A program made the position numbers and the translations under genes. Positions 13,691-37,950 of a stretch of 64,000 nt of DNA are shown here, piece after piece; position 1 is the first letter of the stretch; each line of letters opens with the position of its first letter. The notes under the pieces were generated by a model, which ran no database searches, was not told the DNA's origin, and saw nothing but the letters and a program-made list of their open reading frames with translations. The DNA comes from Candidatus Latescibacterota bacterium (GTDB lineage: Bacteria > JAAXHH01): assembly GCA_022821085.1 (NCBI GenBank), contig JAJEEG010000002.1, positions 1 through 64,000 on the forward strand, read 5' to 3'.

Positions 13691-16600
13691 ATGGCCGGAA
13701 CGACCATACAGATCAAGGGAGCCCGCGTTCACAACCTGAAGAATGTGAACCTGGACTTGCCGAAAGACGCGCTGATCTGCTTTACCGGCGTATCCGGTTC
13801 CGGCAAGTCCTCGCTGGCCTTCGATACCCTCTACGCCGAGGGCCAGCGGCGGTACGTCGAATCGCTCTCCGCCTACGCGAGGCAGTTCCTCGGCCAGATG
13901 CAGAAACCCGACGTCGACCGGATAACAGGACTGGCGCCCGCCATTTCCATCGAACAGAAAGCCGCCGGGCTCAATCCAAGGTCCACCGTCGGGACGATCA
14001 CGGAGATCTACGACTTCCTGCGCGTGCTCTACGCCCGGGTGGGGGTGCCGCACTGCACGAAGTGCGGGGAACGGATCGGGGCGCAGACCCTCGAACAGAT
14101 CGTGGTCCGGATCCTGGCGCTGCCGGAAGGAACGCGGATGCTCGTGATGGCGCCGGTAATCCAGGGACGCCGCGGCGAGTACCGGGACCTGTTCGAGGAC
14201 CTGCGCCGGCAGGGCTATCTGCGCGCACGGGTGAACGGCGTGGTCGCCAACCTCTCCGAAGATCCCGACCTCGACCGTAACATGCGGCACACGATCGAAG
14301 TGGTGACGGACCGGCTCGTCATGCGGGACGATATCCGCACCCGGCTGGTCGAAGCCGTCGAAGGCGCGTTGCACCTGGGACAGGGTACCGTCATGGTCCA
14401 GCTGGAGGAAGACGGCCGGACCTCCGACCTGCTCTTCAGCACCCGGTACGCCTGCAACAACTGCGATCTGAGTTACGAAGAACCGACGCCGCAGCTGTTC
14501 TCCTTCAACAGTCCCCAGGGGATGTGCGCGAACTGCCACGGCCTGGGCACCATGATGCGGATCGAACCCAGGCTCATCGTGCCCGATCCGTCGAAGTCCA
14601 TCAACGAAGGCGCGATCGAGCCCCTCGGCACGATCGCCAATCTCTGGAAACGGCACTTCTTCGAAGGGATCGCCCAGCACGTGGGATTCAGCCTGGACAC
14701 GCCCTGGGAGCGTCTGGCCGAAGAGGCGCGGCGGGTGGTGCTGTACGGACTGGGCTACAAGCGCATCACCTTTACGTTCCGCAACGGAAAGGGAGGCGAA
14801 TGGTCGCACAAGGACCGGTTCAACGGAGTCGTGAACGACCTTGAAAAGCGGTACCATACGCTCAAGTCCCAGCGGCACAAGGCCGAACTCGAACGGTACA
14901 TGGCCATCGGGAAGTGCGACCAATGCCACGGCGAACGCCTGAAGCCCGAGGCGCTGTCCGTCACCCTGGGCGGCCTCTCCATCGCCGCGCTGTGCCGCCT
15001 GCCCATCCTGGATATTCACGCATTCTTCGGGAAACTGACCTTATCGGACGCCGAAAGCCAGATCGGCGACGAGGCGCTCAAGGAGATCGTCGCGAGGCTC
15101 GACTTCCTGCTCAACGTGGGCCTCGAATACCTGACACTGGAACGTACGGCGCCGACCCTTTCCGGAGGGGAGGCGCAGCGCATACGGCTCGCAAGCCAGA
15201 TCGGCCGCGGGCTTGTCGGCGTGATGTACGTGCTCGACGAACCGAGCATCGGCCTGCATCCAAGGGACAACCGGCGGCTGCTGGATACCCTGGGCCATTT
15301 GCGGGACCAGGGGAATACGGTCATCATCGTCGAACACGATGAAGAGACCATGTGGGCGTCCGACCACATCGTGGATTTCGGCCCGGGCGCCGGCGTCAAC
15401 GGCGGTGAGATCGTGGCCGAGGGCCGTCCCGGCGCCGTGGCCGCCAGCACGGCTTCGCTGACAGGCCAGTACCTGTGCGGAAAGAAGACGATCCCCGTAC
15501 CGGCCTCCCGCCGCGGCGTGGACGGCACGTGGCTTACTATTCTTGGCGCGCGCCAGAACAACCTCAAGAACCTGGACGTCCGGCTGCCCGTGGGCCGGTT
15601 TACCTGCGTCACGGGCGTGTCCGGTTCGGGCAAAAGCTCGCTGATCAACGATATCCTGTACGCGGCCCTGGCCCGGTCGCTGAACAAGGCCGGCACCCAA
15701 TCGGGAGAATTCGACGGCCTCAAGGGCGTGGGTCACCTGGACAAGATCATCAACATCGACCAGGCGCCCATCGGCCGCACGCCGAGATCGAATCCGGCGA
15801 CCTACACGAAGGTCTTCGACGCGATCCGCGCCCTCTTCGCCGAAACACCGGAGGCCAGGGTGCGCGGCTACAAACCCGGCCGATTCAGCTTCAACGTGCG
15901 GGGCGGCCGGTGCGAGGCCTGCGAGGGCAACGGCGCGACCCGGGTGGAGATGGATTTCCTGGCGGACATGTGGGTTACCTGTCCCGTCTGCGAAGGCAAG
16001 CGGTTCGACCGGGAGACCCTGGAGGTGAAGTACAAGGGTCATTCCATCGCCGACGTGCTCGACCTGGACGTGCAGGAAGCGCTGGAGATCTTCGAACACG
16101 TTCCCTCCATCGCCCGGGTGCTCCGGACCCTCTACGACGTGGGCCTGGGGTATATCAAGCTGGGCCAGCCCGCGCCCACGCTGTCGGGTGGCGAGGCGCA
16201 GCGAATCAAGCTGGGGCGCGAGCTGTGCAAGCGCAGCACGGGCCGGACCATGTACGTGCTGGACGAACCCACGACCGGCCTGCACTTCGAAGACATCACC
16301 CACCTGCTCGCCGTGCTGAACGCCTTCGTGGACAAGGGCAACACCGTCGTCGTCATCGAGCACAACATCGACGTGATCAAGACGGCCGACTGGATCATCG
16401 ACCTGGGGCCGGAGGGCGGTGAAGCGGGCGGGCGCGTCATCGCCGAAGGGACACCGGAGACCGTCGCGGGCATCGCCGGATCGTCCACGGGACAGATCCT
16501 GGCGAAGGCACTGCGGCCTTCCGGGCCTACAGAGCCATCATCGGGGACGCCGGAATCATTGCCGGCCGCCAGCCGTACTGCCGGTGCAGACGGCCGGACC

Positions 16601-19534
16601 ACCGCCGACGGGGACGGCCGGATTACCGGTGCGGACGGCAGAACAGCCGGTGCGGACGGCCGGACCACCGCCGACGGGGACGGCCGGATTACCGGCGCGG
16701 ACGGCCACATCCGGGAGATCACCGTGCGGGGCGCGCGGGAACACAACCTGAACGATCTCTCCGTGACGATCCCCCGGGACCGGATGACGGTATTCACGGG
16801 CGTGTCGGGCTCGGGGAAGACTTCCCTGGCCCTCGATACGATCTACGCGGAAGGCCAGCGGCGGTACGTGGAATCCCTGTCCGCCTATGCCCGGCAGTTC
16901 CTCCAGCAGATGCAAAAGCCGAAGGTGGACCACATCGTCGGCCTGTCCCCGGCCATTTCCATCGAACAGAAGTCCCCGGGCCGGAACCCCCGTTCCACGG
17001 TGGGCACCATCACGGAGATCTACGAATACCTGCGCGGGCTCTACGCCCTCGTGGGCGACCCCCACTGTCCGGCGTGCCGAGTGCCTGTCGGCGCGCAAAC
17101 GCCCAGCCAGATCGTGGACCGCATCATGACCCTGCCGGAAGGGACCCGCGCCACGCTCCACGCCCCGCTGGAGCCCGAAGGCGCAGACGGGTATGACGTC
17201 CTCCTGGACCGGGCCCGCCGGAACGGGTTCATCCGGGTGCGTATCGACGGTGAGTTGCGGCGGCTCGAAGAGGACATAGAGATCGACCGCCGTCGACGCC
17301 ACGAGTTGTGTGTAGTGGTGGACCGGATCGTCATGCAGGGCGACGTGCGCCAGCGCCTGGCCGACTCCGTGGAGACGGCCCTGGAACTATCGGGAGGGCT
17401 GCTGATCGCCGAAGTGGAGGAGCCGGACACCGGCAGTCTCCGCGACATCCGTTTCAGCCGGTACTATTCCTGTCCGTCCTGCGGAAACAGCTACGACGAG
17501 CCTACGCCCAAGAGCTTCTCCTTCAACCACCGGTCGGGCATGTGCCCCGAATGCGAAGGACTCGGCACCCAGCCCGGCATCGATCTCGACCTGCTGATAC
17601 CGAATCGCGCGAAGCCGGTGCGTGAAGCCGCGGCCGCGATCTGGGGTGAAGACGCAGCGGGTGTAAACGCCATGGGCGAGCGGTCCATGCTCGACCTGTT
17701 GGAACAGGTGGCGTCCACGAGTGGTTTTGCCCTCGAGACGCCGGTCGACGCCTTGTCGCCGGAACAACTCCAGGAGTTACTCTACGGAAGCGAACGGTGG
17801 GTGGACGACCAGCGGGTACCCGGCCTGTCTTTCCAGTTCCGGGGCATCTTCCCGACGGTGGAACTGGTCGCCCGGTACGCGAACCGCTTCCCTGAACTGG
17901 CCCGTATGCTGCAGCCGACGCCCTGTTCGGCCTGCGCGGGCGGACGGCTCCGTCCCGAGAGCCTCTCCGTGATGATCGACGGCGTGTCCATTGCCGGGCT
18001 TTGTGCGCTGCCCATCGACCGCGGCATGGACTTCATCGAGAAGCTGGAACTCTCGGCGTCCCAGCGGGAAGTCGCGGGCGAGGTGTTAACGGAAATCCGA
18101 AACCGCATGCGCTTCCTGCTGGACGTGGGACTGGAATACCTGACGCTCGACCGCCGTGCGCCCACGCTTTCGGGCGGCGAGGCGCAGCGGATCCGCCTGG
18201 CCAGCCAGATCGGATCGGGACTGACGGGCGTGCTCTACGTGCTGGACGAACCCACGATCGGACTCCACCCGCGGGACAACCTCAGGCTGATCGAGGCCCT
18301 GGAAAACCTGCGCGATCTCGGCAATACCCTCATCATGGTGGAACACGACCGCGACACGCTGGAGCATGCCGACAACCTGGTGGATTTCGGTCCGGGGGCC
18401 GGCGTGCACGGGGGCCGGATCGTGGGCCAGGGCGCGCCCGGGAACCTCAAGGAACACGAGACATCGCTCACCGGGCGTTACCTCGCCGACCGGCTGCGCA
18501 TCGAAGTGCCCACTGACCGCCGCAAGCCGGGCCGCAACAGGCTGCGCATCCTCGGGGCCCGCCAGAACAACCTCAAGAACATCGACGTGACGCTGCCCCT
18601 CGGCCTCTTCATCTGCGTTACGGGGGTGTCCGGCTCGGGAAAGAGCTCCCTGGTCAACGACATCCTGTATCCCGTGCTGGCCTCCACCCTGCACCGCGCC
18701 CAGGTCAATCCCGGTCCCCACGACGAGATCAAGGGGCTGCGCTTCGTGGACAAGGTCATCAACATCGACCAGACGCCCATCGGCCATTCCCCGCGCTCGG
18801 ACCCCTGCACCTACGTCGGGCTCTTCGCGCCGATCCGCTCGCTCTACGCCCGGACCGTGGAGGCCCGGATGCGGGGCTACGAACCCCGCCGGTTCAGCTT
18901 CAACGTGCCCGCGGGCCGTTGCGAGGCCTGCCAGGGGCTCGGCGTGCGCAAGATCGAAATGCATTTCCTGGCAGACGTGTGGATGACCTGCGAGGTCTGC
19001 GACGGGAAGCGCTACATGAAGGAGACGCTGGAGGTGACCTACAAGGGCAAGACCATCGCCGACACGCTGGAGATGACCGTGGCCGAGGCCCTCGAGCATT
19101 TCGAGAACGTGCCCCGCATCCGGCGCATGCTCCAGACGCTGTACGACGTGGGTCTCGACTACATCAAGCTCGGCCAGTCGGCCGTCACGCTTTCGGGCGG
19201 CGAGGCGCAGCGGGTCAAGCTTGCGAAGGAACTCTCCCGGCCGGGCACAGGCAAGACCATCTACCTGCTGGACGAGCCGACTACGGGACTGCACTTCGAC
19301 GACATCCGCAAGCTGTTGAAGGTCCTGAACAGGCTGGTAGACAAGGGGAATACGGTGCTGGTGATCGAGCACAACCTGGACATCATCAAGACGGCCGACT
19401 GGATCGTCGATCTCGGACCGGAAGGCGGTGACCGGGGCGGTCACGTGGTTGCCGCGGGGACGCCCGAGGAAATTGCCGGTTCGCTCTCCCATACCGGAAA
19501 GATCTTGTCACGGGAACTGATGGCGGGGACGTGA
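13691..19534 (+). CDS. uvrA: Double-length tandem UvrA (excinuclease ABC subunit A fusion)
   Basis: 1947 residues, about twice the usual 940, made of two complete UvrA units in one frame. Unit 1 (about 1-945): Walker A GVSGSGKSS near 34, zinc-finger pairs CNNC/CANC (about 254 and 279) and CEAC/CPVC (about 741 and 764), signatures LSGGEAQRIRL and LSGGEAQRIKL, Walker B YVLDEPSIG and YVLDEPTTG. Unit 2 (about 1008-1947) repeats all of these (GVSGSGKTS near 1038, CPSC/CPEC, CEAC/CEVC, LSGGEAQRIRL, LSGGEAQRVKL). All four ATP sites and both zinc pairs look intact, so neither half is obviously dead. UvrA dimers scan DNA for bulky lesions and load UvrB; here one chain could form the whole dimer. The halves are joined by a repeat-rich linker (about 950-1007). 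ATG 13691 has only a weak ribosome site. Confidence 0.97.
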   Translation: MAGTTIQIKGARVHNLKNVNLDLPKDALICFTGVSGSGKSSLAFDTLYAEGQRRYVESLSAYARQFLGQMQKPDVDRITGLAPAISIEQKAAGLNPRSTVGTITEIYDFLRVLYARVGVPHCTKCGERIGAQTLEQIVVRILALPEGTRMLVMAPVIQGRRGEYRDLFEDLRRQGYLRARVNGVVANLSEDPDLDRNMRHTIEVVTDRLVMRDDIRTRLVEAVEGALHLGQGTVMVQLEEDGRTSDLLFSTRYACNNCDLSYEEPTPQLFSFNSPQGMCANCHGLGTMMRIEPRLIVPDPSKSINEGAIEPLGTIANLWKRHFFEGIAQHVGFSLDTPWERLAEEARRVVLYGLGYKRITFTFRNGKGGEWSHKDRFNGVVNDLEKRYHTLKSQRHKAELERYMAIGKCDQCHGERLKPEALSVTLGGLSIAALCRLPILDIHAFFGKLTLSDAESQIGDEALKEIVARLDFLLNVGLEYLTLERTAPTLSGGEAQRIRLASQIGRGLVGVMYVLDEPSIGLHPRDNRRLLDTLGHLRDQGNTVIIVEHDEETMWASDHIVDFGPGAGVNGGEIVAEGRPGAVAASTASLTGQYLCGKKTIPVPASRRGVDGTWLTILGARQNNLKNLDVRLPVGRFTCVTGVSGSGKSSLINDILYAALARSLNKAGTQSGEFDGLKGVGHLDKIINIDQAPIGRTPRSNPATYTKVFDAIRALFAETPEARVRGYKPGRFSFNVRGGRCEACEGNGATRVEMDFLADMWVTCPVCEGKRFDRETLEVKYKGHSIADVLDLDVQEALEIFEHVPSIARVLRTLYDVGLGYIKLGQPAPTLSGGEAQRIKLGRELCKRSTGRTMYVLDEPTTGLHFEDITHLLAVLNAFVDKGNTVVVIEHNIDVIKTADWIIDLGPEGGEAGGRVIAEGTPETVAGIAGSSTGQILAKALRPSGPTEPSSGTPESLPAASRTAGADGRTTADGDGRITGADGRTAGADGRTTADGDGRITGADGHIREITVRGAREHNLNDLSVTIPRDRMTVFTGVSGSGKTSLALDTIYAEGQRRYVESLSAYARQFLQQMQKPKVDHIVGLSPAISIEQKSPGRNPRSTVGTITEIYEYLRGLYALVGDPHCPACRVPVGAQTPSQIVDRIMTLPEGTRATLHAPLEPEGADGYDVLLDRARRNGFIRVRIDGELRRLEEDIEIDRRRRHELCVVVDRIVMQGDVRQRLADSVETALELSGGLLIAEVEEPDTGSLRDIRFSRYYSCPSCGNSYDEPTPKSFSFNHRSGMCPECEGLGTQPGIDLDLLIPNRAKPVREAAAAIWGEDAAGVNAMGERSMLDLLEQVASTSGFALETPVDALSPEQLQELLYGSERWVDDQRVPGLSFQFRGIFPTVELVARYANRFPELARMLQPTPCSACAGGRLRPESLSVMIDGVSIAGLCALPIDRGMDFIEKLELSASQREVAGEVLTEIRNRMRFLLDVGLEYLTLDRRAPTLSGGEAQRIRLASQIGSGLTGVLYVLDEPTIGLHPRDNLRLIEALENLRDLGNTLIMVEHDRDTLEHADNLVDFGPGAGVHGGRIVGQGAPGNLKEHETSLTGRYLADRLRIEVPTDRRKPGRNRLRILGARQNNLKNIDVTLPLGLFICVTGVSGSGKSSLVNDILYPVLASTLHRAQVNPGPHDEIKGLRFVDKVINIDQTPIGHSPRSDPCTYVGLFAPIRSLYARTVEARMRGYEPRRFSFNVPAGRCEACQGLGVRKIEMHFLADVWMTCEVCDGKRYMKETLEVTYKGKTIADTLEMTVAEALEHFENVPRIRRMLQTLYDVGLDYIKLGQSAVTLSGGEAQRVKLAKELSRPGTGKTIYLLDEPTTGLHFDDIRKLLKVLNRLVDKGNTVLVIEHNLDIIKTADWIVDLGPEGGDRGGHVVAAGTPEEIAGSLSHTGKILSRELMAGT
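16577..16708 (+). repeat. 66-bp tandem duplication encoding the linker between the two UvrA units
   Basis: Two near-identical 66-base units (16577-16642 and 16643-16708) encode 22 residues each, beginning TAGADGRTTADGDGR. The two copies differ at only a few bases. Each unit itself contains smaller GACGGCCGGA-type repeats. The result is a flexible Gly/Asp/Thr linker. Confidence 0.95.
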
Positions 19535-27782: not shown

Positions 27783-29057
27783 CTAAGACTTGTCGGCAGA
27801 CGGCGGTTGCGATAGCAGCCAGATCGCCCGCGTCCAATGAAATGCCGCCGTGATCACCGTCCAGATGGCCACGCAGGTGAAGGCTTCCTCCAGCATGCCG
27901 ACCGCCAGGCCCGCGAGCAGCACCAGGACATTCGTATTGCGCCGGGCGCCGATACGGCGAAAAAAGCGGTCCACGGGCGCGTAGTCAAACAGTTCTATAC
28001 CCTGCCTGGACTTGAACATCCCCGTGGCTGCCTTGTCAAGCAGATAAAAGAACGTAATCACCGTGGCGAGCACAAAGGGACCGACCACCTCGCCGCCGGC
28101 GCTGAGCATCCACCCCAGTGCCCAATACCAGGTCAGTTCCCAGACCACGTCCAGGATATGCTCGAATCGGTCTCCGAAACGGGTGCATCGCACGGTCACG
28201 CGGGCCAACTTGCCGTCGACTCCGTCCAGCACTCCGACGATGAATGCGATCACCAGTCCGGCGGCCAGGTATCCCGTGCCCATCTGCCCCACGGCAAGGA
28301 GCCCGGTGGCCAGAAAGGCGAGCAGTATGGAGAGGGTGGTTACCTGGTTCGGCGTCACGGAACTGGCCGAAATCCATTTCGTAAGCAGGTTCTCCAGGGG
28401 CGGATGGATGAATTCAGCCGGAAAATCCAGCGTACCCTTCTGCGCGGCGTCGGCCAGCAGGGCCTCCGCCCTGCGGATCTTCAGGTCCGAATCGACGACC
28501 ACCCACCAGGGGGGCAGGCTCCGGCGAAGATCCACGATATAGGGGTCCATTTCGCGAAGGTCGAATAACGGACAGGTCGATTCCTGCGCCGAGTCCAGCG
28601 CGGACCACAGCGATTCGGAGCCGGTCCAGGACGCCGTGAGCCCTGCGAGGAGGTCCGCGTCCGCCACCAGCAGCCTGCAGGGTTCCCTGACCGCCGAGTC
28701 CACGGCGCTCCGGTTCGGGCCGCCGTCGATCATGACCCGTAGAACCCTGGGATCGTACAGGTGGCCGGCGTCCATGACCAGGGCCGTTTCGTCCTTCCCG
28801 GGCAGCCAACGGGCGGGGTTTTCGTCCGTGCGTACGTAATCGACGGCGTCCAGTCCCCGGTACCAGCGATTGTCGAATCCGTCGACCCGGACCTTCGATC
28901 CCCGCCCGGGCGAAGGTCCGACAACCGTGACCTGCCTGGCTCCCAGGGAAGCGAAGACCCGGAGGTGACGCTCCAGCAGCGAAATACCGTAAATCGACCG
29001 GCCGGCGCCGGCCGACATGGTTTCCGTATCCGCGAACAGGACTACGCTGAATTTCAT
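27783..29057 (-). CDS. CDP-alcohol phosphatidyltransferase with N-terminal nucleotidyltransferase-like domain
   Basis: 424 residues. The C-terminal half (about 225-420) has six membrane helices and the CDP-alcohol signature D-GV-D-G-KL-A-R ... G-DRF-E-HIL-D. The third conserved Asp is replaced by Glu (FGDRFEHILD), a possible change in metal binding. The N-terminal half (about 1-215) resembles a degenerate nucleotidyltransferase/MobA-like fold (VVGPSPGRG, VMDAGHLYDP, VADADLLAG) and lacks a clear GGxGxRL loop. The whole looks like a diverged bifunctional IPCT/DIPPS-type protein. It would condense a CDP-alcohol with an acceptor at the membrane. Substrates unknown. It follows the flippase gene on the same strand. 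Confidence 0.85.
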   Translation of the reverse strand: MKFSVVLFADTETMSAGAGRSIYGISLLERHLRVFASLGARQVTVVGPSPGRGSKVRVDGFDNRWYRGLDAVDYVRTDENPARWLPGKDETALVMDAGHLYDPRVLRVMIDGGPNRSAVDSAVREPCRLLVADADLLAGLTASWTGSESLWSALDSAQESTCPLFDLREMDPYIVDLRRSLPPWWVVVDSDLKIRRAEALLADAAQKGTLDFPAEFIHPPLENLLTKWISASSVTPNQVTTLSILLAFLATGLLAVGQMGTGYLAAGLVIAFIVGVLDGVDGKLARVTVRCTRFGDRFEHILDVVWELTWYWALGWMLSAGGEVVGPFVLATVITFFYLLDKAATGMFKSRQGIELFDYAPVDRFFRRIGARRNTNVLVLLAGLAVGMLEEAFTCVAIWTVITAAFHWTRAIWLLSQPPSADKS

Positions 29058-30747: not shown

Positions 30748-31517
30748 GATGGGGGGGTCGCCGGTCCGGGGGTCATCCTGTCCGCTTCGATCAACAGGGT
30801 CCATCCCCGCTGGTTCCCGGTAAACAAGTTGAAGACCGCGGATACCATCCTGCCGACCGATACCAGTCCCAGACGGATCAACGCCGCCGGAACCGCGTGC
30901 ATGCGCTCCGCGGCGTAGCTCAGCCGGATCAATGCCAGGTCCAGCCGGGAACGAAGCATGTACCGGTGTCTCATCAGTCTGAATCCACAGGCCTCCAGCA
31001 ACGAGCCGACCGACCGGTGCGTATAGAACTGCTGGACGCTGTGACGCTTCCGGTGCTCGTCGCGCCACGACTCGCCGATCTTCTCGAGGCTCAGGCTGTC
31101 CAGCGTCAACAGGATGCGGCCCCCGGGCCGCAACACGCGCCACATCTCACGCAGCGTCTGCCTGTCGTCCGGCAGGTGCTCGAAGACGCAAAGGCTCATG
31201 ACCGTGTCGAACTGCCCGGAGCGAAGGGGGAACGCGTCCGCATGGGCGCAGATGAATCCCGTGCGGGGCGTCTTGTGGTAGGCCTGGGCACGGCGCAGCT
31301 GTTTCCGGTCCAGGTCGAAACCGAACACCCTGGCGCCCCGCAGGGCGACCCGGTAGTCATAGGTCCCTTCCCCGCAGCCGATATCCAGAATACGCTCGCC
31401 TTTGCGCGGCTTCAGCCAGCGTAGCGCGGGGACCGTTTCCTGGGTCCTGCGGAAGTTGAAGTCCTTCCTGAGCCGGAGGGCGAAGAGTCCCTTTGCACGG
31501 AACAGCAAACCGCTCAT
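30744..31517 (-). CDS. Class I SAM-dependent methyltransferase
   Basis: 257 residues starting MSGLLFRAKGLFAL at ATG 31517, overlapping the upstream stop by ATGA. SAM motifs: ILDIGCGEGTYDY, VFGFDLDRKQ, ADAFPLRSGQFDTVMSLCVFEHL and LRPGGRILLTLD. The C-terminal part contains amphipathic helices, consistent with a membrane-linked substrate. Its place between a CDP-alcohol enzyme and a flippase suggests that it methylates a lipid-linked or glycan intermediate. Confidence 0.9.
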   Translation of the reverse strand: MSGLLFRAKGLFALRLRKDFNFRRTQETVPALRWLKPRKGERILDIGCGEGTYDYRVALRGARVFGFDLDRKQLRRAQAYHKTPRTGFICAHADAFPLRSGQFDTVMSLCVFEHLPDDRQTLREMWRVLRPGGRILLTLDSLSLEKIGESWRDEHRKRHSVQQFYTHRSVGSLLEACGFRLMRHRYMLRSRLDLALIRLSYAAERMHAVPAALIRLGLVSVGRMVSAVFNLFTGNQRGWTLLIEADRMTPGPATPPS

Positions 31518-32965
31518 GAGCGCATATCCCCGGCCAACGCCCGGTCCCGGGCCAGCAGCCTCCCCGTGGAAATGAATATGGCCAGGCCCATGGCCAAGCC
31601 GCCGGCCGTAACGGTCCAGAACATCCAGCTGAGCAGGTCGAGGGCGGCGAAACAAAGCAGCAGCATGGTAAAGAAATCTCTTTTGGCCATCATCCTGAAC
31701 AGGTTGAGCAGCCTTGAGAAGAGGTGGCGCCGCCGCCCGACGGCGTGCTCTTCGAAGGCCCGGTTGAAACGGACCAGGCTACCGCTCCCGCCGGTCTGCA
31801 GCAGATAGTAGTACATCACGAGAATCGACGCGGCCACCACGGCGACGGATCCCAGGCCGAGGGACCGGATTACCGTTTCCCCGGAGCCGCCCGCGTAGGC
31901 CCAGACCACGGCCGCGAAGAACGCCAGGTAGGTCAGGTTGTCGGTGATCGTGTCGAGCCACGAACCGTATTTCGATTCGCGGTAGGTCAGCACCGCCACC
32001 TCACCATCGCAGCCGTCGAGTATGGACGAAACCTGGAAGAGCAACGCGCCCAGCAGCACAGACCCGTAGGTGCCGTCCAGCACGGACCACGCCCCGGCCA
32101 GGCCGGTAAGGAAAGTGATCAGGGTCACCATGTTCGGAGTGACCGGCGTCCGGACCAGCCACCGGCTGAGACGGGTCGAAATCGGCCGGTTGATATGCCG
32201 GGATACCCAACCGTCTGTGGGTTTTACGAGGCGTCCCAGCAGGGCTTTTTCTCCCTGGGACAGCATTTCGGGCGTATCCACGTCCTGCCAGTATCCATCG
32301 CCCACGTCGAAGGCGCGCATCCGCCCTTCCGCGGCTAGCGCCCGGATGCCGTCGCTCAACGCGCAACCCTTCGGTCCATCCACCGTATCGAGGGCGTCGA
32401 ACAGGGCCGGCGTACAGAGGAACATGCCGGTGTCGACCGCGTTGTACGCTTGCAGTGCCTTGTCGATGCGCACCACTTTGTCCCCGCGCACTTCGACCTT
32501 GGTCGCGTCGTCCAGGTCGTACACGCGGTCGATTTTCCGGTCGACGGCGAGCAGGCACTCCCCTTTGGCCACCGGTTCCTCGAGCAGCCGCTCCAGCGTC
32601 CGCTGCTCGAAGAGGTGATCGGCCATGAGCAGCACGAACGGTTCATCCAGGCGGGAGCGTGCGGCCAGGGCGGAAACCCCGTTGGGCAGATGCCACCGTT
32701 CGTTGTGCACCCATTCGATCTCGAGGGCGTCCAGACCGGGATCGTTGGAAAGGACCTCGTGAAACCGGTCCGCCTCGTATCCCGTTACGATCACGAAGCG
32801 CGTCACGCCGGCCCGCGCGGCCGTCAAAATGATCCGCTTGATCAACGGCACGCCGCATAGCTTCAACAGGGGTTTGGGCACCGGGCCGGTGACGGCCTGA
32901 AGGCGCACGCCCGCGCCGCCGGCTATGATGAGCGCCGGAGCCGCTCTTCGGGTATGATGATCCAT
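31514..32965 (-). CDS. Bifunctional nucleotidyltransferase / CDP-alcohol phosphatidyltransferase (IPCT/DIPPS-like)
   Basis: 483 residues. The N-terminal domain (about 9-245) is a sugar-phosphate/inositol-phosphate nucleotidyltransferase: ALIIAGGAGVRL, VPKPLLKLCGVPLI, VLLMADHLFEQRT and YWQDVDTPEML. The C-terminal domain (about 262-480) is a CDP-alcohol transferase with D-GC-D-G-EV-A-V and YGSWLDTITDN; the Arg of the usual A-R pair is Val. This is the layout of IPCT-DIPPS, which makes CDP-inositol and joins it to inositol-1-phosphate to give di-inositol phosphate compatible solutes. The alcohol (inositol, glycerol or other) is not proven. No inositol-phosphate synthase is in the window. It follows the BlaR1-like gene by 40 bases. 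Confidence 0.85.
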   Translation of the reverse strand: MDHHTRRAAPALIIAGGAGVRLQAVTGPVPKPLLKLCGVPLIKRIILTAARAGVTRFVIVTGYEADRFHEVLSNDPGLDALEIEWVHNERWHLPNGVSALAARSRLDEPFVLLMADHLFEQRTLERLLEEPVAKGECLLAVDRKIDRVYDLDDATKVEVRGDKVVRIDKALQAYNAVDTGMFLCTPALFDALDTVDGPKGCALSDGIRALAAEGRMRAFDVGDGYWQDVDTPEMLSQGEKALLGRLVKPTDGWVSRHINRPISTRLSRWLVRTPVTPNMVTLITFLTGLAGAWSVLDGTYGSVLLGALLFQVSSILDGCDGEVAVLTYRESKYGSWLDTITDNLTYLAFFAAVVWAYAGGSGETVIRSLGLGSVAVVAASILVMYYYLLQTGGSGSLVRFNRAFEEHAVGRRRHLFSRLLNLFRMMAKRDFFTMLLLCFAALDLLSWMFWTVTAGGLAMGLAIFISTGRLLARDRALAGDMRS

Positions 32966-33005: not shown

Positions 33006-34892
33006 CTAGAAGATCGCGGAAAAGCCCAGCGTCATCTCCGGGTAAGGACGAGAGATGACATCCAGTTCCTTCCGGTAGGATGCCTGTACGATCACGGCGA
33101 CGTGCCGTTCCCAGTAGTAACGCAGCCCGACCCCGGCGTCGATCATGGTCATGTTCCGGTTCTGCGGCCTGATCTCCAGGCCGGCGCCCCATCCGAAGAA
33201 AGGCGTGAAGGAATCGCCCGGAACGAGCAGATTGTACCGGTAGAAGGCGCCGATCCGGGTGATCCTTTCGGCCTGCTCTTCCTCGGAGGTTTCCAGTACG
33301 GTCTCCTGCGCCGAAGAGGTCCCGAAACCGGCCAGTCTCCGGGCTCGAAGGAGGGAACCGCTATACGGGGATCCGGAAGGCCGCCGGGTATCGTCAAAGG
33401 CTTCCGTATCGTTGGGACGCCGAATGGAAAACACGCCGCCAAACTGGTGGGTCGGTGTAATGAAATAGCCGGCGCTCAGGGAGACCGTACCGGGATCGAA
33501 CAACTCGTTGCCGGTCCGGCCCACGCCCTGCACCTCGATACGTCCCTGCCTGGCCTGGTTCCCTGTCGATAGCGTCCGATCCGGGATGACCGGGGCGGCG
33601 GCATGTCCTAGCACGGCGGGGTTGATCCGTTCGCGCTCCGTGGATTCGGGCATCCCGTCCCGGGGAAGTACAACCGGTTTTTTCATCATGGCGGCCATGG
33701 ACCTGCGCGGTGCGGGCCGGCCGTCTACCATGATCCGGTGATCGACTTTCCGGCCTGGCGGCACGGGTGCGTCCGCGACCCACGCGACCTGCGTCGCCGG
33801 ATTCGAACCTTCGTGATGCTGCGCACCGGGCGCCGGATCTATCCGGAAGGCAACCGCCGGTTCGGCGGGTATGCTCGCCCGTGACGGTTCGGGCGCGTCG
33901 CGGGGCGCCTCCACCGCCGGCCGCAACAGGGGCATGACCGCGATCAGCGAGCAGATACCGGCGGCCAGCAACGGGAAGAAGGCGCGGTCCTTCCGGTTCA
34001 CCGTCGAACCGAGCACGTCCCGGATACGCTGGGCCGCCATGGATGCCGACCGCGCCAGTTCGAGGGCGGCCTGCCAGTGCGTCCGGACCTTGCCCGTGGC
34101 CACCTTCAACAGGGTGGAAGCATAGCGCTCCGGCTGCCTGGAAACACGGACGACATCCGCGTCGCAGGCCCGCTCCGCCTCGATCCCGGCCCGGTACGCG
34201 GCGTACCATACCGCCGGGTGGAAAAAGAAGAAGAACCTGCTGAACTGGACAAGAAAGACGGTAAGGTGGTCCCGCCGGGCATAGTGGGCCAGTTCATGAA
34301 GCAGGACCTGCCTGAGTTCCGCGCTGGAAAGCTCCAGAATGCACCAGGAGGGGATCACGACGACGGGGCGCCCGGCGGCGATCAGGACGGGCACCTCGAA
34401 CTCGTCGGAGACCCGCAAGGCCACTTTGCGCTTCAGGCCCGATTCGGCCAGACACCGGTCGAATAACGCGCTTACCCGGGGGACGGCGACCGGGACGGAC
34501 CGCCGCCTTCTCCGGGACATGGTGATGACCGACGAACCTATGCGGTACAGGCCGAAACCGGCGAAACCCATCCAGACCAGACCGGCGACGGCGTAGACAC
34601 CGGAAACCAGGGCGTTGTAACCGCTCGCGGCGGACACGCCGTGGCTCGCCATCGACGCCCACGGGATCTCGAACGGTCCATGCCAGGGCAGCACGAGGGT
34701 CAGCAGCGGTTTGGCCAGAACCAGCAGCCAGAGGAAGTGTCGTATTCTGGCCGGGCATCCCGGGTTCACGAACAGCAGCACCCAGACCAGGACGCCCAGA
34801 AGCAACGCTTCAAGGCTCGGAAGCCACAACAGGTCCACGACCTCCCGGCCGAACCGCTCGAACAGACCTATGGCGTGACCGGAATCAAGCAT
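33006..34892 (-). CDS. BlaR1-type M56 metallopeptidase fused to a C-terminal outer-membrane-type beta-barrel
   Basis: 628 residues. The first half is a membrane-embedded M56 peptidase: several membrane helices (LEALLLGVLVWVLLF, SGVYAVAGLVWMGF), the zinc motif LLHELAHYARRDH near residue 200, and FHPAVWYA. After a Pro/Ala/Arg-rich linker (about 325-455) the last 165 residues are alternating beta-strands (SLSAGYFITPTHQFGG, FFGWGAGLEIRP, VGLRYYWERHVAVIVQASY) ending in GFSAIF, a porin-like barrel ending in Phe. BlaR1 relatives sense a signal and cleave a BlaI repressor; here the sensor half appears to be a barrel. It overlaps blaI by 8 bases and starts after GGAGG. Confidence 0.85.
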   Translation of the reverse strand: MLDSGHAIGLFERFGREVVDLLWLPSLEALLLGVLVWVLLFVNPGCPARIRHFLWLLVLAKPLLTLVLPWHGPFEIPWASMASHGVSAASGYNALVSGVYAVAGLVWMGFAGFGLYRIGSSVITMSRRRRRSVPVAVPRVSALFDRCLAESGLKRKVALRVSDEFEVPVLIAAGRPVVVIPSWCILELSSAELRQVLLHELAHYARRDHLTVFLVQFSRFFFFFHPAVWYAAYRAGIEAERACDADVVRVSRQPERYASTLLKVATGKVRTHWQAALELARSASMAAQRIRDVLGSTVNRKDRAFFPLLAAGICSLIAVMPLLRPAVEAPRDAPEPSRASIPAEPAVAFRIDPAPGAQHHEGSNPATQVAWVADAPVPPGRKVDHRIMVDGRPAPRRSMAAMMKKPVVLPRDGMPESTERERINPAVLGHAAAPVIPDRTLSTGNQARQGRIEVQGVGRTGNELFDPGTVSLSAGYFITPTHQFGGVFSIRRPNDTEAFDDTRRPSGSPYSGSLLRARRLAGFGTSSAQETVLETSEEEQAERITRIGAFYRYNLLVPGDSFTPFFGWGAGLEIRPQNRNMTMIDAGVGLRYYWERHVAVIVQASYRKELDVISRPYPEMTLGFSAIF

Positions 34893-35325
34893 CCGATGCC
34901 TCCGGCTCCGGCGCGTCCGGCTCCGTCTCCGGCGCGTCCGACGACTCCGAGGCTATCCTGTCCAGCAGTTTGCGCAGGCTCTCGGCTTCTTCCGCGGTCA
35001 ACGCGTCCGATTCGATCAGGTGCAGCACCAGGGACTGCGGCGATCCAGCAAATAGCTTGTCCACGACAGCCCGGACCGTTTCCCGCCGGACGCCCTCGGG
35101 TTTCAGGATGGCGGTGTAGACATAGGCCCGGCCTTCACGGGTATACCGGACGACACCTTTCTGCGTGAGTATGGACAGGACCGTCTGAACCGTGGTGTAC
35201 GCCAGGGGACGCTGGTTTCGAAGCGAATCGACGATCTGGCGCACTGTCGCCCGTCCCAGCCGCCAGACGACGTTCATGATGTCGATTTCCAGGTCAGTCA
35301 AAGACGAAAGCTTCTTTCTCGCCAT
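34885..35325 (-). CDS. BlaI/MecI/CopY-family transcriptional repressor
   Basis: 146 residues from ATG 35325: LTDLEIDIMNVVWRLGRATVRQIVDSL winged-helix start, YTTVQTVLSILTQKGVV recognition helix and a C-terminal dimerisation helix pair ending in a Glu/Pro/Ala tail. BlaI repressors are inactivated by proteolysis through a BlaR1/M56 partner, here the next gene. A near-palindromic AT-rich dyad upstream (35405-35441) is a plausible operator. The longer GTG start at 35349 lacks a ribosome site. Confidence 0.93.
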   Translation of the reverse strand: MARKKLSSLTDLEIDIMNVVWRLGRATVRQIVDSLRNQRPLAYTTVQTVLSILTQKGVVRYTREGRAYVYTAILKPEGVRRETVRAVVDKLFAGSPQSLVLHLIESDALTAEEAESLRKLLDRIASESSDAPETEPDAPEPEASDA

Positions 35326-35404
35326 CCGATCCGTACCCCGGTTTGCCACTCCGATGCCTCGAAGCGTAAGGTGTCCGCACGCTGCGGTTGCGACCGAAGA
35401 TTTC

Positions 35405-35441
35405 GTTAGTTAAATATATGGCCTATTGTATTTTAATTAAC
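35405..35441. promoter_or_regulatory. AT-rich imperfect dyad between blaI and the LpxH-like gene
   Basis: Arms GTTAGTTAAATA (35405-35416) and TATTTTAATTAAC (35429-35441) are near-reverse complements around a 12-base centre, in an otherwise G+C-rich sequence. It sits 80 bases upstream of blaI and 91 upstream of the LpxH-like start, so it may be the operator or promoter for one or both. It does not contain the TACA-N-TGTA core of classical bla operators. Confidence 0.4.
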
Positions 35442-35531
35442 GCGCGCGGGGCGAAATGTCAATCCAAAGTTATCCCTCTGAATCCCCGGGAAACCGGCGT
35501 TTGCCGGCCTGTTTCGGTCATGGAGCCTGAT

Positions 35532-36284
35532 ATGAGTCTTAAACCCGTCTACTTCATTTCCGACGCCCACCTCGGAATCGACGATTACGGGGCGGAAGAA
35601 GAGCGAAGAGACCGGTTGCTGGAATTCTTGCGAAGTCTCAGGGGCCGTACCGGTCATCTGTACATCGTGGGCGATCTGTTCGATTTCTGGTTCGAGTACC
35701 GCACCGTGGTGCCGCGCCAGCACTACACGGTGCTGCACGCGCTGAGCTCGCTGGTCGAAAGCGGCGTCCGGGTCACCTACCTCGCGGGAAACCACGATTT
35801 CTGGCTGGGGACCTTCCTGGACGAGCAGGTCGGGGTGGAAACGGCCGAAGGCCCTCTGACCGTTACCCATCACGGCCGGAAGATCTATATCGCCCATGGT
35901 CACGGACTCATATCCAGGGACCTTGGATACCGCCTGCTATCAAAGATTATGCACAGTCCCTTAAGCATCCGCCTGTTTCAGCTGATTCACCCGGACTGCG
36001 GCTTCAGGATCGGCCGCCTGGCATCGCGGCTCAGCAGGCGCCACGGCACACCTACGGCGTGGGATCCGCGGGAAGCTTACAGGGATCTGGCCTTCTCATT
36101 GCTCGACCAGGGTTACGATGTGGTGGTCTTCGGGCACAACCACTGCCCGACGCTGGAGCATAAGGAGGACAAGTTCTATATCAACCTGGGAGACTGGCTA
36201 CAGCACGACACCTATGGCGTGCTGCGCGACGGAGAGATGACCCTGGAGAAGTACAGGCCGGGGGATAAGCGCGAAACGAAATAA
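35532..36284 (+). CDS. UDP-2,3-diacylglucosamine hydrolase-like metallophosphoesterase (LpxH type)
   Basis: About 250 residues from ATG 35532 (GGAG 6 bases upstream). Calcineurin-like motifs in order: SDAHLG, GDLFDFWFEY, GNHDFW, AHGHG and FGHNHCP, with HPDCGFRIGRLAS and a YINLGDW strand. These are the features of LpxH and its relatives, which cleave UDP-2,3-diacylglucosamine in lipid A synthesis on the inner membrane. Other LpxH-like enzymes act on other nucleotide-linked lipids, so the gene symbol is not certain. Confidence 0.88.
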   Translation: MSLKPVYFISDAHLGIDDYGAEEERRDRLLEFLRSLRGRTGHLYIVGDLFDFWFEYRTVVPRQHYTVLHALSSLVESGVRVTYLAGNHDFWLGTFLDEQVGVETAEGPLTVTHHGRKIYIAHGHGLISRDLGYRLLSKIMHSPLSIRLFQLIHPDCGFRIGRLASRLSRRHGTPTAWDPREAYRDLAFSLLDQGYDVVVFGHNHCPTLEHKEDKFYINLGDWLQHDTYGVLRDGEMTLEKYRPGDKRETK

Positions 36285-36597: not shown

Positions 36598-37950
36598 TCA
36601 AGGCGCGTTGATGAAGATCGGAGCAAGAGGCAAGTCCTCAGCCCCGGGTATCGAAACCACCAGATACGCCGTACCATGACCTACAATCCAGTCCTCAGCG
36701 GTGTCGATGGTAATTGTACCTAAAGCACCGCTGATAGCTGCCGGCGTAGAATTGGCAGGAATGGCGATCACGTCCGGATTCTGGCTTCGAACGGTCGCCG
36801 TCAAGGTATCGTCATTGTTAGAAGTCTTGCCGTCGGGACCGACTTCCAATACCTGGATACGCAGCACGATGTTCGCGGCAGGCGTCACCGATCTGGCCAC
36901 GGTTTCATTTACGTCAGTAGTGGCGGGATCGTCTTCGACTGCAGGCTGAAGGACCCGGGTACGGTCGGCCGTACTGGACGGGTATGGATTCATCACGTAC
37001 CTGATGACCCCAGTACCGCCTGCGACGGTAATCGTGATCTTGGCCTTGGACGTAACCCCCTGGCCCTGGGCCGTGATTTCGGCTTTTCCTCGACCTTCCG
37101 CCGTGATCGTGTTACCGTCCACGCTGACTATGTCGGTATCGGAACTTACCCAGTCAATCAGCGCTTCGGCGCCGTCGATTACGTCGCCGTCTTCTTCCTC
37201 ATTGTAGGCGACGGGTGTCATCAGATCGATCGAACCACCTACCGGCAGCACATAAGAGGTCGCCTGGCCCGAGGCAAACTCGATCCGCTGGATCAGGTCG
37301 AGCACTTTAATGGTCAGGTCTATTGCCACACCTCTTCCCACAGCGGTAACCGTTACCGTCGCCTTGCCGGTCGGAGACGAGGCGTCGATTGTGCCCCCGT
37401 CGACCGTAACAGCGTCGGAATCGGAAGCCCAGTCGAACGTGATGGGCAGCGCCATACCGCTCTGGCTGGCGGCCTTTGCGGCGATCATGGTCATATCGCC
37501 CACGGCCATAATCAGATTCAGGGCGTTTTCCGTACCTTCCCTGAGTTCGAAGTCAGGCGCGTCGAACACGGCGATCTTCTTGTCGTTGCCATCCTGCATC
37601 AACTTGATGTGATGAATGTCGGACAGCACGCCGCTACCGATGACCTGATCCGCGTCGATGCCCTCGCCCTGGGGTCCCTGGGGACCTTGTGGACCGGCGG
37701 GACCTTCAGGGCCGGCGGGACCTACGGGGCCTTGCGGACCGGCGGGACCCTGATCACCCTGGTCGCCCTGGGGGCCTTGCGGACCTTCGGGGCCTTGCGG
37801 ACCAACCGGACCTTGAGGACCGGTAGAGCCGGCTACGCCCTGCGGACCGGCTGCGCCTTGAGGACCGGTAGGGCCGGCGGGGCCTGTCTTGCCTTCGCAT
37901 CCCATCATGGATAGCGCGAACGCAATCACAATTACTATGAGGTAATGCAT
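36598..37950 (-). CDS. Collagen-like triple-helix lipoprotein with Ig-like (BIG) domains
   Basis: 450 residues. Signal sequence ending in lipobox MMGC, then about 25 Gly-X-Y triplets ([10 protein letters not shown]-type) forming a collagen-like rod at residues 22-96, followed by at least two BIG2-like domains ([20 protein letters not shown] and [18 protein letters not shown], both with the 'change over constant' pattern) and a C-terminal beta-domain. GGGAG lies 7 bases before ATG 37950. Bacterial collagen-like lipoproteins form surface stalks or adhesive fibres; that role is inferred. The triplet region is G/C-rich and repetitive, whereas the sequence upstream is very AT-rich. Confidence 0.93.

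Follow-up and report, generated by a model that had tools for sequence, protein, structure and literature searches.

A BlaR1-type membrane protease fused to an outer-membrane-type beta-barrel: a candidate trans-envelope sensor in a Candidatus Latescibacterota bacterium

The window analysed here, a 64,000-nucleotide stretch of contig JAJEEG010000002.1 from a Candidatus Latescibacterota bacterium, contains a 628-amino-acid-residue ORF on the minus strand at 33006-34892. This single ORF encodes, in order, a complete M56 protease with four membrane helices, a proline-rich linker and a C-terminal eight-stranded barrel. We propose, with a probability of roughly 55%, that the product and the adjoining repressor form a BlaR1-BlaI pair in which a barrel in the outer membrane, tied to the protease across the periplasm, acts as the sensor and informs BlaI of outer-membrane or lipid A status. 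The ORF is the one that an earlier reading of this DNA from its letters (the sequence-only reading) had picked out; it lies at the same coordinates on the minus strand, and the plus strand of the interval is interrupted by stops. When the predicted model of the full chain was compared with the PDB, the BlaR1 cryo-EM structures 8exs/8exr and OprF were both matched in one query. The confidence of this model was low (mean pLDDT 49.7) and the mutual placement of the domains is not readable from it. The parts of the gene and its repressor are as follows, with the evidence for each in brackets.

34023-34892, minus strand: M56 (BlaR1-type) membrane zinc protease, residues 1-290 (PF05569, hydropathy, alignment, model match)
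33924-33980, minus strand: TM4, residues 305-323 (hydropathy; BlaR1 topology, PMC9834060)
33546-33923, minus strand: proline-rich linker, residues 324-449, 126 amino acids (length, proline content, dN/dS, motifs)
33009-33545, minus strand: eight-stranded outer-membrane-type beta-barrel, residues 450-628 (AF2, Foldseek, TIGR04565, dN/dS)
34885-35325, minus strand: BlaI/MecI-family repressor, 146 amino acids from the likely ATG, in an ORF that opens at GTG 35349 (PF03965, E 3.8e-33)

Pfam Peptidase_M56 (PF05569) matched residues 23-290 with an E-value of 8.5e-34 (117.5 bits against a cut-off of 31). TM1-3 were placed by hydropathy at residues 24-42, 50-68 and 95-113 and the HELAH zinc motif lies at residues 199-203, so the membrane-helix-bearing HELAH protease recognised in the sequence-only reading is present, with four TM helices in all. 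The catalytic set H199, E200, H203, E240, D244 and R289 is invariant across 15 homologues, and its residues map by spacing onto BlaR1 His201/His205/Asp246/Arg294 (PMC9834060). Judged from sequence, the protease belongs to M56 and its pairing with BlaI is a BlaR1-BlaI architecture. The fusion protein is the only M56 protein over the cut-off in its own genome; two further M56 matches are weak, below the cut-off and located in ORFs without the CD motif of M56. Pfam and NCBIfam scans of the fusion protein found no penicillin-binding sensor domain, the NCBIfam blaR1 models scored far under their cut-off, and the protein is not a beta-lactam sensor. The protease gave no match in the defence-system profile library.

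The blaI gene lies upstream of the fusion gene with an 8-bp overlap and is the sole blaI in the genome by profile search; a BlaI-family gene is adjacent in all homologous loci. The BlaI repressor that the earlier reading had supposed as partner is thus the adjoining gene. BlaR1 has an N-out/C-out topology with its zinc site on the cytoplasmic side, and cuts BlaI directly (PMC9834060); by analogy, the fusion protease should cleave its own BlaI. The M56 fold, HExxH with a downstream Glu ligand and Asp, the conserved Arg on the helix that follows, an extracytoplasmic sensor past the last helix and the overlapping blaI are shared with BlaR1/MecR1-BlaI/MecI. Those systems carry a penicillin-binding sensor domain, whereas an outer-membrane-type barrel is found here, and the host here is a diderm.

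An AF2 model of the last 179 residues, built with 15 homologues, contained exactly eight beta strands, mostly above pLDDT 80; part of loop L1 and the long loop L2 (492-543) were poorly defined. The top PDB match by Foldseek was the N-terminal barrel of OprF (4rlc, E 1.4e-6, TM 0.58/0.76), and OmpA and NspA were other leading matches. The chain ends in Phe628 with the C-terminal sequence LGFSAIF, and LGFS[AT]IF is nearly invariant among homologues. Structure prediction had been suggested as a check on the C-terminal barrel ending in Phe, and it agreed. The modelled turns are 4, 7 and 4 residues long on one side of the barrel and the loops 9, 52, 6 and 7 on the other; both ends of the barrel are on the turn side, which agrees with a periplasmic linker. 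TIGR04565 (OMP_myx_plus, an outer-membrane barrel family) scored 20.9 bits against a cut-off of 60, and 11 of 15 members gave a sub-threshold match to it. The barrel is also the most constrained part of the protein: its dN/dS is 0.093, while the protease has 0.229 and the linker 0.69. On the model, the C-terminal domain is an eight-strand barrel of outer-membrane type, and its location would be the outer membrane. The eight-strand fold is common to the N-terminal barrels of OprF/OmpA and to TIGR04565, where no polytopic inner-membrane enzyme is attached to it.

It is improbable, in our estimate, that the barrel is instead a soluble or lipid-binding (lipocalin-like) ligand domain in the periplasm or inner membrane, acting as an ordinary BlaR1 sensor. 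The in/out hydrophobic alternation of the strands exceeds that of shuffled sequences only modestly (a difference as large arises in 278 of 10000 shuffles), no curated outer-membrane family model matched the barrel over its cut-off and a Pfam scan of the tail found no match; these results would suit such a domain. However, the best 50 PDB matches listed for the barrel were all transmembrane barrels, either from outer membranes or designed, apart from one outer-membrane secretin, with no soluble fold or lipocalin among them. These matches disfavour a soluble barrel, and a soluble fold for the last 165 residues, which the earlier reading had named as fatal to its proposal, did not emerge. The loop/turn asymmetry and the terminal Phe also count against a lipocalin-like domain, and such a domain would have no need of a linker 126 or more residues long. 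A weak match to the barrel elsewhere in the genome (E 0.024) lies antisense to an unrelated gene and was rejected as a paralogue. Beyond the phylum the barrel profile gave three weak matches, in G055, G133 and G258; that in G055 is a genuine OmpA-type protein and that in G133 was rejected, being antisense to other genes.

Between TM4 and the barrel the homologues have 126-165 residues and never fewer than 126. The linker has a doubled proline content (10-18%) and two short conserved motifs, DGRPxPRRSM (about 390-400) and PAxLG (about 425-429), neither fully invariant. It is the fastest-evolving part of the protein (the dN/dS of 0.69 is a median) and probably disordered. Rapid sequence change combined with a floor on length is the pattern expected of a spacer. 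With roughly 3 angstrom for each extended residue, the linker would exceed 350 angstrom, sufficient to cross the periplasm. The segment after TM4 is, by analogy, periplasmic: the BlaR1 chain past its last helix is extracytoplasmic, and this would put the barrel on the periplasmic side. Three readings had been offered from the letters, namely a trans-envelope sensor, a cleaved precursor and a novel signal domain reporting barrel misfolding. The trans-envelope sensor fits best, because the linker is at least 126 residues long and proline-rich and would put the N-terminus of the barrel on the periplasmic side, as a barrel of eight strands demands.

The linker also bears on the cleaved precursor. 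The BlaR1 of Staphylococcus aureus sheds its sensor through a signal-peptidase cut immediately past the last helix (PMC9834060). A similar cut after TM4 or within the linker, which evolves fast and is probably disordered, would release the barrel as an independent small outer-membrane protein, and its production or cutting would itself be the signal. This we regard as unlikely, since the homologue alignment shows no conserved signal-peptidase (small-x-small) site after TM4, the nearest candidate in the window protein, A-V-E-A, being followed by Pro. Nor does it account for a linker length maintained at 126 or above, or for both parts being kept in a single frame by 15 of the 16 genomes of the phylum, in which no barrel gene standing alone was seen.

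Those 16 genomes, from a phylum that is small and little known, span three families and five genera, and every one of them carries the fusion, in 15 cases as one unbroken ORF. The homologues are 35-92% identical to the window protein. The sole homologue with a frameshift, which lies within the barrel, is that of G009 (L013, G009:C397); either an error in the MAG or a genuine split could account for it. The joining of two genes by a frame or assembly error, the other outcome held in the sequence-only reading to be fatal, is rejected because the fusion recurs in all 16 genomes. Its proposed search for the same fusion in other genomes thus succeeded within the phylum and failed outside it, where none of 50 M56 tails had the barrel.

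Two lipid genes flank the locus.

35532-36284, plus strand: LpxH-like UDP-2,3-diacylglucosamine diphosphatase, a lipid A step (TIGR01854, E 1.9e-23; synteny)
31514-32965, minus strand: NTP-transferase/CDP-alcohol phosphatidyltransferase fusion, like bifunctional IPCT/DIPPS (NF041135, PF00483, PF01066, synteny)

The LpxH-like gene is divergent from blaI and matches TIGR01854 over nearly its full length, at 82.9 bits against an equivalog cut-off of 190.35; it is the sole LpxH candidate in the genome by LpxH profile search. The IPCT/DIPPS-like gene starts 40 bp downstream of the fusion gene and matches NF041135 below its cut-off (E 4.6e-72). The LpxH-like gene on one side and the IPCT-like gene on the other were found in every phylum genome with flank sequence; L011 is a contig end, with the LpxH-like flank outside the sequence. 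Elsewhere in the genome lpxA, lpxC-fabZ and lpxD are clustered near an Omp85 gene, so that both lipid A and BAM-type genes are present. A second CDP-alcohol/inositol-phosphate-type transferase lies downstream of a flippase at 27783-29057 (minus strand), giving an operon neighbourhood with two transferases of inositol-phosphate type. At 36598-37950 (minus strand) an ORF with a lipoprotein-like N-terminus (MMGCEG) continues with collagen-like Gly-X-Y repeats for roughly 80 residues.

The sequence-only reading had raised barrel misfolding as one possible signal. The fixed LpxH-like neighbour would point to lipid A or outer-membrane status at least as strongly as to misfolding. Given the fixed lipid-gene neighbours and the sole LpxH candidate, we favour outer-membrane lipid status as the sensed signal, with barrel assembly a close second. 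In the latter case the barrel would be a decoy outer-membrane protein: with BAM working it would be inserted and the protease silent, and with BAM blocked the unfolded periplasmic C-terminus would activate the protease. The near-invariant C-terminus is of the beta-signal type that BAM reads, and no segment is under stronger constraint than the strands, as such a decoy would have it, but the fixed neighbours are lipid genes and not genes for BAM, chaperones or periplasmic proteases. We consider this decoy doubtful, below even the cleaved precursor; it is a special case within the trans-envelope model.

A candidate site for BlaI control lies in the interval that separates its gene from the divergent LpxH-like gene.

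35326-35531, no strand assigned: intergenic region flanked by the divergent blaI and LpxH-like genes (15 such regions aligned)

The 15 aligned regions share a conserved AT-rich block. A candidate imperfect dyad, AACTAACGAAATCTTCGGT, lies at 35393-35411 on the minus strand and is a putative BlaI operator. It differs between clades, a clean palindrome common to all intergenic regions was not found, and no sigma-70-like promoter was detected at the scan threshold. Within 3 mismatches AACTAACGAAATCTTCGGT matches its own genome only at the blaI locus, so the operator search of that genome gave no further target. BlaI may control the LpxH-like gene, and the imperfect, clade-variable dyad keeps this at the level of a hypothesis. 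A site 3 mismatches from the candidate operator, AAACAACGAAATCTCCGGT, is identical in L160, L161 and L162, three members of one genus, and these sites are probably one orthologous place.

In the trans-envelope model the small outer-membrane barrel would stand in for the usual periplasmic sensor of BlaR1. The M56 part would be embedded in the inner membrane, its zinc site turned to the cytoplasm; the chain would enter the periplasm past TM4, and the linker of at least 126 residues would span it. BAM would insert the C-terminal eight-stranded barrel into the outer membrane. Protease activity would then be set by the state of the barrel, that is, by its insertion, by the contacts that its loops and lipid-facing surface make with lipid A/LPS, or by pull on the tether. 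The active protease would cut BlaI and so derepress its own operon and probably the divergent LpxH-like gene, a one-molecule feedback from outer membrane to cytoplasm on envelope lipid synthesis. The stronger form of the model, in which one polypeptide occupies both membranes and intramolecular coupling (tether tension or barrel state) conveys a signal from the outer membrane to a cytoplasmic repressor, so that the lipid A or assembly status of the outer membrane feeds back on lipid A synthesis with no relay by a lipoprotein, a phosphorelay or a sigma/anti-sigma pair, is put forward tentatively, at somewhat less than even odds.

The objection in the sequence-only reading, that a single chain would not easily lie in both membranes, is too strong. 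PelB of Pseudomonas aeruginosa has been proposed to bridge both membranes, its N-terminus contributing a helix and its C-terminus an outer-membrane barrel (PMC12141448). It is a proposed precedent for a single chain in both membranes, and differs in being an export channel with a TPR scaffold, neither sensor nor protease. In the Rcs stress response (RcsF-OMP/IgaA), outer-membrane barrels reportedly help to convey LPS state to the inner membrane (PMC4942254, PMC7553776). RcsF with outer-membrane barrels (PMC4942254) is the closest functional analogue; Rcs uses several separate proteins and a phosphorelay, in contrast to one covalent chain and a protease here.

The exchange of C-terminal parts on a common protease chassis is found in other M56 proteins as well. 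In 384 genomes we surveyed 52 other M56 tails, 50 from outside the phylum and two from G014 paralogues. The 25 commonest Pfam families over the tails showed a small outer-membrane barrel in none of the 52 (eight loci without an ORF were left out). The tails included HEAT, TonB_C, STN, CarboxypepD_reg and thioredoxin-like domains and, once, in a set scanned singly, a secretin domain. L095 (G287:C1:558500-564100), from another phylum, encodes an M56 protein of about 1123 amino acids with a secretin match (PF00263) over the cut-off. This protein likewise joins M56 to an outer-membrane-type module and is the nearest in spirit to the window protein. A plasmid collection contained ordinary M56 proteins only. 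A literature search, mostly without subscription journals, found no paper combining the features sought. As far as we searched, the barrel sensor is new for the M56 chassis.

Reporting from the outer membrane to the cytoplasm of diderms usually takes relays of several proteins. A covalent barrel-tether-protease, if true, would be the simplest solution known to us. It would also provide a true example of a single chain integrated in both membranes, would bear on BAM's treatment of a substrate with an inner-membrane anchor, and would extend a BlaR1 chassis known mainly from antibiotic resistance far beyond that use. The question is directly testable here, with one gene, one repressor and a fixed lipid A neighbour. 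Apart from this locus, the window contains at 13691-19534 (plus strand) a single ORF of 1947 amino acids with two matches to the full UvrA model, that is, a tandem double-length UvrA.
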